From Amycolatopsis granulosa (GTDB lineage Bacteria > Actinomycetota > Actinomycetes > Mycobacteriales > Pseudonocardiaceae): a stretch of 64,000 nucleotides of DNA. The notes below the pieces were generated by a model that was not told the DNA's origin, ran no database searches, and saw only the letters and a list, made by a program, of their open reading frames with translations. The position numbers and the translations under genes are program-made. The stretch spans positions 5,022,001 through 5,086,000 of the forward strand of contig NZ_JAANOV010000001.1 of assembly GCF_011758745.1 (NCBI RefSeq), given 5' to 3'. How positions within the stretch are numbered: position 1 is the first letter of the stretch; the number at the start of each line of letters is the position of its first letter. Of the stretch, positions 53,874 through 55,214 are shown in pieces.

Positions 53874-53906
53874 GACCGCACGCACCCCGCCGGGGACCCC
53901 GCGGTC
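53874..53906. terminator. Hairpin between exoribonuclease and DAHP synthase genes
   Basis: Arms gaccgc (53874-53879) and gcggtc (53901-53906) enclose an inner CCCC/GGGG stem. It lies between the convergent genes and may act in both directions. Confidence 0.5.
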
Positions 53907-55020
53907 AGCGCCGCGCGGCCACCGCCTCCGCGAGCCGGTCCAGCAGCCCGGCCGTGCTCGGCCAGTCCAGGCAGGCGTCGGTGATGGACTGCCCGTAGGT
54001 CAGGTCCCCGGCGCGCCCCAGCACCAGGTCCTGCCGCCCGGCTTCCAGGAAGCTCTCCAGCATGATCCCGGCGATCCCGCGTTCCCCGGCGGCGATGCGA
54101 TCCGCGATCTCCCCCGCCACCACGCCCTGCCGCACGTGGTCCTTGCCGCTGTTGCCGTGGCTCGCGTCGATGATCACCCGTTCCGGCAGCCCGGCCTTCG
54201 CCTGCCGGGCCAGCGTGCCGGCGACCGTCGCCGCGTCGTAGTTCGGTCCGGCCGAGCCGCCACGCAGGATCACGTGGCAGTCCGGGTTGCCCGCGGTGGT
54301 GAACAGCGCGGCCAGGCCGTCGTCGTTGATCCCGGCGAACACGTGGCTCGCCGCGGCGGCCCGCGTCGCGTCGATCGCCACCTGCACGTCGCCCTCGGTG
54401 GAGTTCTTGATGCCGACCGGCATCGACAGCGCGCTGCACAGCTGCCGGTGCACCTGGCTCGCCGCGGTCCGGGCGCCGATCGAGCCCCAGCTCACCGTGT
54501 CGGCGATGAACTGCGGCGTGATCGGGTCGAGGAACTCGCACCCGACCGGCAGGCCCAGCGCGGAGATGTCGAGCAGCAGTTTGCGCGCCAGGCGCAGCCC
54601 CTTGTTGACCGAGTAGGTGCCGTCCAGGTCCGGGTCGTTGATCAAGCCTTTCCAGCCCAGCGTGGTGCGCGGCTTCTCGAAGTACACGCGCATGATCACG
54701 TGCAGTTCGTCGCGCAGCTCCGTGGTGTGCGCGGCCAGCCGGTGCGCGTAGTCGAGCGCGGCGGCCGGGTCGTGCACCGAGCACGGCCCGACGACGACGA
54801 TCAGCCGGTCGTCCGCGCCGTCGAGGATGTCGACGGTGGCGGCCCGGCCCTGCGCGACCGTCTTGGCGACCGCCGCGTCCACCGGCAGCTCCTGCCGGAG
54901 CAGGGCGGGGGAGATCAGCGGGCTGACGCCGAGCGTGCGCTGGTTGTCGAGGGCCGCGCTGGTGTCCGCGGGGCCTGCGCTGGGCGTCGTTGCGCGGGAG
55001 GTCGTTGCGGGGGGTGTCAT
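53905..55020 (-). CDS. aroG: 3-deoxy-7-phosphoheptulonate synthase, type I (DAHP synthase)
   Basis: 371-residue DAHP synthase that joins phosphoenolpyruvate and erythrose 4-phosphate, the first step to aromatic amino acids. Type I motifs are clear: Gly-Pro-Cys-Ser-Val-His-Asp (about 75), Lys-Pro-Arg-Thr-Thr-Leu-Gly-Trp-Lys-Gly-Leu (about 115) and the Cys-Glu-Phe-Leu-Asp-Pro segment. The first 35 residues are variable. It has a long leader with a small aromatic-rich reading frame, suggesting attenuation. It is the Rv2178c position, where mycobacteria have the unrelated type II enzyme. Confidence 0.95.
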   Translation of the reverse strand: MTPPATTSRATTPSAGPADTSAALDNQRTLGVSPLISPALLRQELPVDAAVAKTVAQGRAATVDILDGADDRLIVVVGPCSVHDPAAALDYAHRLAAHTTELRDELHVIMRVYFEKPRTTLGWKGLINDPDLDGTYSVNKGLRLARKLLLDISALGLPVGCEFLDPITPQFIADTVSWGSIGARTAASQVHRQLCSALSMPVGIKNSTEGDVQVAIDATRAAAASHVFAGINDDGLAALFTTAGNPDCHVILRGGSAGPNYDAATVAGTLARQAKAGLPERVIIDASHGNSGKDHVRQGVVAGEIADRIAAGERGIAGIMLESFLEAGRQDLVLGRAGDLTYGQSITDACLDWPSTAGLLDRLAEAVAARR

Positions 55021-55066
55021 GTGCGGGGGGTGTCCTTTCGGTGCCCGGCCCGCGGGAGTCCCTGAC

Positions 55067-55088
55067 GAGCCGGTCGGTCATCCGGCTC
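55067..55088 (-). promoter_or_regulatory. Hairpin in aroG leader
   Basis: A seven-base-pair stem (gagccgg/ccggctc) with an eight-base loop lies between the leader peptide stop and the aroG start. It may be part of an attenuator or anti-attenuator structure. Competing pairings need computation. Confidence 0.4.
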
Positions 55089-55100
55089 CAGGGTGGAAGG

Positions 55101-55169
55101 TCAGCGCGCAGCGAGGCCGCCGGCTGGCCCACCCAGGGCCGGCCCGCTGAACCAGAAATACCGCTGCAC
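55101..55169 (-). CDS. Aromatic leader peptide upstream of aroG
   Basis: A 22-codon reading frame starting with GTG 55169 and ending in TGA at 55101. Codons 4-7 are Tyr-Phe-Trp-Phe, four aromatic residues in a row; the rest is Gly/Ala/Pro-rich. It lies 80 bases before the DAHP synthase start on the same strand. TAGGGT (55182-55177) ends seven bases before the GTG, so the leader mRNA may be leaderless. Ribosome stalling at these codons when Tyr, Phe or Trp is scarce could raise aroG expression. Such leaders exist in other actinobacteria, but this one is inferred from sequence alone. Confidence 0.7.
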   Translation of the reverse strand: MQRYFWFSGPALGGPAGGLAAR

Positions 55170-55176
55170 GTCGGCC

Positions 55177-55182
55177 ACCCTA
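55177..55182 (-). promoter_or_regulatory. TAGGGT -10 of the aroG leader transcript
   Basis: On the minus strand TAGGGT lies seven bases before GTG 55169. No good -35 at normal spacing is seen. Confidence 0.4.
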
Positions 55183-55196
55183 GCAGCCGACCCGAC

Positions 55197-55214
55197 CCCT
55201 TGACCGATCAAGGG
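55197..55214. repeat. Palindrome between aroG leader and pfk
   Basis: Seven-base arms cccttga/tcaaggg around a four-base centre. It overlaps the TTGACC -35 of the phosphofructokinase gene and lies upstream of the aroG leader. It could bind a regulator acting on both. Confidence 0.4.

Follow-up and report, generated by a model that had tools for sequence, protein, structure and literature searches.

In the 64,000-nucleotide stretch of Amycolatopsis granulosa DNA considered here (the window), a reading frame with codons for tyrosine, phenylalanine and tryptophan precedes aroG, and its features suggest that it very probably belongs to a ribosome-mediated, codon-dependent attenuator that sets the output of DAHP synthase according to the charging of tRNA-Tyr, tRNA-Phe and tRNA-Trp. 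This reading is carried by a short, conserved frame with codons for the products of the pathway, located upstream of a biosynthetic gene and on the same strand, and by mutually exclusive RNA structures downstream of the sensor codons, in which the covarying helices 1:2 and 3:4 both overlap helix 2:3. An earlier note, made from the sequence alone, had proposed a ribosome-mediated attenuator at this site. Our results support the proposal, with the reservation that the window has no intrinsic terminator between the leader and the gene, so that “attenuator” need not mean transcription termination.

The coordinates of the features are compiled in Table 1. The GTG-started frame of 22 codons described in the earlier note, on the strand of aroG and 80 nt upstream of it, was exact to the base: the GTG is at 55169, the TGA at 55103-55101, and the ATG of aroG at 55020. 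The four consecutive aromatic codons, the TAGGGT box seven bases before the GTG and the hairpin between the leader and aroG (GAGCCGG...CCGGCTC) were likewise found, and the downstream gene does encode a DAHP synthase, as its product matches the 3-deoxy-7-phosphoheptulonate synthase model TIGR00034 (E 5e-145). In actinobacteria, a spacing of 6-7 nt between TAnnnT and the start codon characterises leaderless transcripts. The 7 nt that separate the TAGGGT from the GTG therefore make a leaderless transcript probable, with its predicted start at the G of the GTG (55169) and no RNA 5' of the frame.

Table 1. Features of the aroG leader region, in window positions and in the order of transcription.
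Feature	Positions	Strand	Description	Basis
-10 promoter hexamer	55177..55182	minus	TAGGGT; last base 7 nt before GTG	
Leader peptide frame	55101..55169	minus	22 codons + TGA, VQRYFWFSGPALGGPAGGLAAR	sequence read, conserved in relatives
Sensor codons	55149..55160	minus	codons 4-7, TAT TTC TGG TTC (Tyr Phe Trp Phe)	composition conserved
Strand 1	55129..55142	minus	CCGGCCCTGGGTGG; inside the leader, just past the sensor codons	fold and swap test
Strand 2	55082..55096	minus	CCACCCTGGAGCCGG; past the leader stop; partner of strand 1 (1:2) or of strand 3 (2:3)	
Strand 3	55066..55075	minus	GACCGGCTCG; pairs with strand 2 (hairpin 55088-55067) or strand 4	
Strand 4	55045..55052	minus	CGGGCCGG; partner of strand 3; stops 5 nt short of the Shine-Dalgarno motif	covariation
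Shine-Dalgarno motif of aroG	55033..55039	minus	GAAAGGA	sequence read
aroG	53905..55020	minus	class I (type I alpha) DAHP synthase, 371 aa	TIGR00034

The gene pfkA is divergent from the aroG leader and runs from 55278. Between the two divergent promoters lies a palindrome, CTTGACCGATCAAG (55199-55212), which relatives retain, exactly or nearly (CTTGATCGGTCAAG and CTTGATCGGTGCAG, aroG strand), and which could be an operator or the -35 region of pfkA. The genome also encodes one class II DAHP synthase (L001, G000:C1:4920072), about 155 kb from aroG. Inspection by eye of its upstream region revealed no aromatic run or aromatic leader; a GTG close to the enzyme's start is preceded, at a distance of a few bases, by TATCCT, and this transcript may be leaderless too.

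Conservation of the frame and of its aromatic run in relatives, on which the earlier note had made its proposal depend, was found at several phylogenetic depths. All 18 members of the genus having the main aroG possess the leader, and among them the segment from codon 4 to about codon 17 is almost unchanged at the base level, with AroG identity down to about 80%. A class I DAHP synthase is present in 122 of 200 genomes from the family, and the leader was located upstream of 67 of the 70 sampled aroG orthologues, the sample comprising 70 upstream regions that adjoin orthologues of about 67% identity or more. The three regions without it come from one genus, g26 (L057, L068 and L070), in which the aromatic run is lost; the downstream hairpin and strand 4 are retained there despite this loss. 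More distant paralogues of the family mostly lack the leader, which, where checked, occurs in one copy per genome, at aroG. Nearly all family leaders have a TAnnnT 6-7 nt before the RTG; in our reading, L084 fits this spacing with its upstream ATG, and L043 and L053 do so with extended frames.

Divergent leaders also precede the class I DAHP synthase genes of Mycobacterium/Mycolicibacterium (VNIRVCAGYWRFIEAPGGADKAQR), Rhodococcus (MQRAYFWFSRPARGGSVGVTAR), Micromonospora (VTRSYRWFRQPAGGAGDFTVI), Streptomyces sp. 150FB (MSAVNRWYWRYEPAPGGAGGHVR) and Arthrobacter (MTNRWYAYFSLALEGPASN), likewise those of Gordonia, Dietzia, Williamsia, Tsukamurella, Nocardia, Kribbella, Glycomyces and Isoptericola, and those of many further genomes of the order and class. 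The upstream regions examined in Nocardiopsis, in two Streptosporangiales MAGs and in the class-level family f31 contained no such leader. When 150 genomes were searched with R1, a covariance model built from the family, each genome that matched gave a single match, and these genomes belong to three families of the order.

The RNA downstream of the sensor codons contains four strands with alternative partners. Strand 1 can either fold back on itself with GGGCCAGCCGG (P1, reaching about 55120) or form a helix with strand 2, whose core GAGCCGG is nearly invariant. Owing to the overlap of the strands, helix 1:2 excludes 2:3 and helix 2:3 excludes 3:4, and this predicted exclusive pairing is the classical four-strand attenuator logic. 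Outside Pseudonocardiaceae, helix 1:2 is long and its two sides change in step, as in GCTGGCTCTGGGTGG/CCACCCAGAGCCAGC (L152), CTGGCTCCGGGTG/CACCCGGAGCCAG (L163) and AGGCTCCGGGA/TCCCGGAGCCT (L154). In a swap test of this helix with 93 sequences, the mean energy was -33.4 kcal/mol with the own partner versus -29.4 kcal/mol with a swapped one (Wilcoxon p 1.5e-8, a value inflated because the sequences are related and their independence is overstated), and the signal comes mostly from outside Pseudonocardiaceae, being not decisive within Pseudonocardiaceae alone. For helix 3:4, the own partner beats the swapped one in 34 of 40 cases (p 1.3e-6), and the covariation score was reached by none of 500 shuffles, both figures being subject to the same inflation. 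Helix 2:3 shows no covariation, for its sequence hardly varies.

Folded alone, the window transcript is not unusually stable (z -1.27), and none of the 4227 Rfam models matched the window or 13 loci. A start-to-stop stem, formed by codons 2-3 with the Arg and stop codons, was also considered; 79-90% of its cells are paired but without covariation, and it is not claimed. In L056 and L058, from genus g16, which includes Amycolatopsis sp. CA-126428, CCTTTCGAAAGG lies over the Shine-Dalgarno motif of aroG, where a local hairpin would hide the motif.

According to the mechanism that we propose, a leaderless transcript, as the promoter spacing implies, would start at the GTG and be loaded by a 70S ribosome. 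If any of the aromatic tRNAs were short, the ribosome would stall on codons 4-7, its leading edge covering strand 1; helix 1:2 would then be blocked, 2:3 would pair, strand 4 would be free and the ribosome-binding site of aroG would be open (ON). If all three tRNAs were plentiful, the ribosome would finish the leader and depart, 1:2 could form, and strand 3, now released, would bind strand 4 next to the Shine-Dalgarno motif, so that the translation of aroG would fall (OFF).

The alternative structures, whose computation the earlier note had recommended, were evaluated by equilibrium folding with modelled ribosome footprints. A ribosome placed on the sensor codons changed the mean pairing of 1:2 from 0.15 to 0.02, that of 2:3 from 0.79 to 0.89 and that of 3:4 from 0.13 to 0.06, while with a ribosome at the leader stop 3:4 was 0.21. 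The accessibility of the Shine-Dalgarno motif (n=71) was 0.45 in the free RNA, 0.53 in the stalled state and 0.45 with the ribosome at the stop, and the stalled value exceeded the free one in only 31 of the 71 sequences. The modelled direction of the response thus fits an opening of the aroG ribosome-binding site on starvation, with a small shift in accessibility. In the free RNA of the window, 2:3 dominates in the equilibrium model and the predicted switch is weak; helix 3:4 lies beside the Shine-Dalgarno motif rather than on it. Given the small effect on the motif and the dominance of 2:3 in the free RNA, the output step is one that we infer.

No intrinsic terminator, defined as a hairpin followed by a T-run, was found between the leader stop and aroG in the window, and the output in the window's lineage is therefore probably exerted at translation initiation. 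The same sensing by the ribosome could instead lead to transcription termination, either Rho-dependent or at a GC-rich hairpin without a U-tract, an alternative that we regard as unlikely while giving it more weight than any other. Under a relaxed rule, intrinsic terminators follow strand 2 directly on its 3' side in 32 of the 50 leaders outside the family set versus 6 of the 43 inside it, and PMC11802643 presents the aroR site of C. glutamicum as a transcriptional one, both of which agree with termination. The window itself, however, has no T-run in this interval, and the conserved, covarying helix 3:4 adjoins the Shine-Dalgarno motif, which points to translation; moreover, folding two of the terminator-bearing relatives gave no antiterminator, and a stalled ribosome left their terminator intact. 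In L071, L073, L074 and L084, the loop that joins strands 2 and 3 contains a strong intrinsic terminator, and the rest of the element is kept.

The suggestion that one leader carries codons for all three aromatic amino acids holds at the sequence level well beyond the window: Tyr, Trp and Phe are all represented in the aromatic cluster of 105 of the 115 distinct leader peptides, in an order that varies (YFWF, YWRF, WYAYF, YPWF, WYWF and others). The main exception is family f34 (L216-L225, L232 and L235), with Tyr and Phe only (YPYF/YRYF, e.g. VITVRRYPYFAQAPGGAGRVMR). The leaders encode Tyr by TAT in 96 of 108 cases and Phe by TTT in 92 of 129; the corresponding frequencies are 0/51 and 1/74 in eight genes of the window, and 1/84 and 0/118 in 17 actinobacterial aroG bodies. 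The last Phe codon of the window leader, TTC, is an exception to the preference for TTT. The sensor positions thus mostly hold the rarest synonymous codons, as would be expected for a device tuned to stall; A/U at these positions may instead be due to RNA structure.

Conservation of the leader extends past its aromatic codons, and in 23 distinct YFWF-type leaders, every base of codons 10, 11, 13 and 14 is invariant, while the residues in between differ. Such an extension could reflect a nascent chain that arrests the ribosome on sensing a metabolite, with no need for codon-dependent stalling. We consider this very improbable, since 3' of the aromatic run the nucleotides are kept more than the residues (SGPALGGPAG, TKPAPGGHGG, TWPARSGPVG, SRPARGGSVG), and the aromatic codons differ between leaders in order and spacing, as tRNA sensing would lead one to expect. 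A shade less probable still is that the frame encodes a small protein that acts in trans in its own right: deep conservation would suit this, and trans action of a leader peptide has been reported elsewhere, for peTrpL of Sinorhizobium, but the residues outside the aromatic run drift while the helices are kept, and the frame is confined, where checked, to a single copy per genome at aroG.

The frequency with which such frames arise by chance was measured on the 64 kb window and the fetched loci with a detector that requires TAnnnT, a spacing of 6-7 nt, an RTG, and an ORF of 10-44 codons with at least three aromatic residues in five. Over both strands of the window there was exactly one match, the aroG leader, and there was none in 285 kb made up of aroG bodies and the sequence downstream of them. 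Among regions upstream of class I DAHP synthase genes, the detector was positive in 29 of 34 from actinobacteria and in 3 of 45 from outside the actinobacteria. That the frame opened by chance over a structured RNA or a promoter region is scarcely credible: the window has 73% GC, at which stop-free frames are common, and those three controls are positive, but the start is fixed at the -10 box, the aromatic content is conserved in a changing order, and the codons TAT and TTT are rare. Two Rhodobacterales loci, L197 and L209 (Pseudogemmobacter and Leisingera), have aromatic-rich short frames, MSHVHATTYAAVWFYYFRSCQRMRAAV and MTRTYAAFWYFFYPRHMADGGVSAF, upstream of a class I DAHP synthase, which apparently represent an independent aromatic leader.

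Codon-dependent attenuation by the leader, our preferred reading, has a published counterpart. The Corynebacterium leader mentioned in the earlier note is the aroR attenuator before aroF of C. glutamicum (Neshat et al. 2014, pmid 24910972, cited in PMC11802643, PMC4046766 and PMC7356990). According to these sources, the aroR leader contains Phe-Tyr-Phe (PMC4046766), and Phe limitation, not Tyr availability, affects expression (PMC11802643). In both cases a DAHP synthase gene is preceded by a leader containing aromatic codons, and the window element is probably related to aroR; it differs in having Tyr, Phe and Trp codons, in a different run, and no intrinsic terminator. One relative, L274, with a 2.7 Mb genome of the same order and of the same family as the Mycobacterium genomes, has the leader MRNWRFYFEWGSGR, which contains Phe-Tyr-Phe as reported for aroR, and the 1:2 architecture described above (GGGGCTCCGGC:GCCGGAGCCCC); we liken it to aroR by the published description.

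The trp and pheA attenuators of enterobacteria operate by alternative folding and by stalling at codons for the product. They differ from the window element in responding to one amino acid each, in having a leader preceded by a Shine-Dalgarno sequence, and in their intrinsic terminator, the feature of a classical transcription attenuator that the window lacks between leader and gene. The terminatorless cys leaders and the LEU element of actinobacteria (Seliverstov et al. 2005, PMC1262725), together with the cysteine uORFs of mycobacteria (PMC4633059), belong to other pathways and resemble it in their short, often leaderless, product-rich leader, in having no obvious terminator and in their conserved upstream region. 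The same 2005 survey of actinobacteria reported neither a conserved structure nor regulation by RNA ahead of Phe or Tyr genes (PMC1262725), and the reannotation of Streptomyces lividans lists eight leaders, none of them an aromatic one before a DAHP synthase (PMC8079986). A study from 2021 includes the uORF candidate uORFC-13-1 before aroF, and thus before a DAHP synthase, in Acholeplasma, which is of another phylum and where the candidate adjoins a terminator stem (PMC8632094). In the open-access literature searched, attenuation is therefore known and one example, aroR, is published; what appears new by that measure is the three-amino-acid, terminatorless variant, without an Rfam family.

A broader reading, which we offer tentatively and hold a little below even, is that there is a single, previously undescribed actinobacterial RNA element, whose leaderless frame uses its rarest codons to read all three shikimate-pathway end products, and which in Pseudonocardiaceae and in lineages like Rhodococcus and Nocardia is terminatorless and acts on translation, not on transcription. 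DAHP synthase catalyses the committed step towards Tyr, Phe and Trp and towards many antibiotics of these bacteria. A leader that combines the charging levels of the three tRNAs would serve naturally as a sensor with three inputs, and the fact that its composition is kept while the order changes makes multi-amino-acid attenuation directly testable. Removal of the leader is an obvious route to a higher shikimate flux, and removal of aroR in C. glutamicum has been carried out for this purpose (PMC7356990). The versions with and without terminators form a natural series for the interconversion of transcriptional attenuation and translational control.
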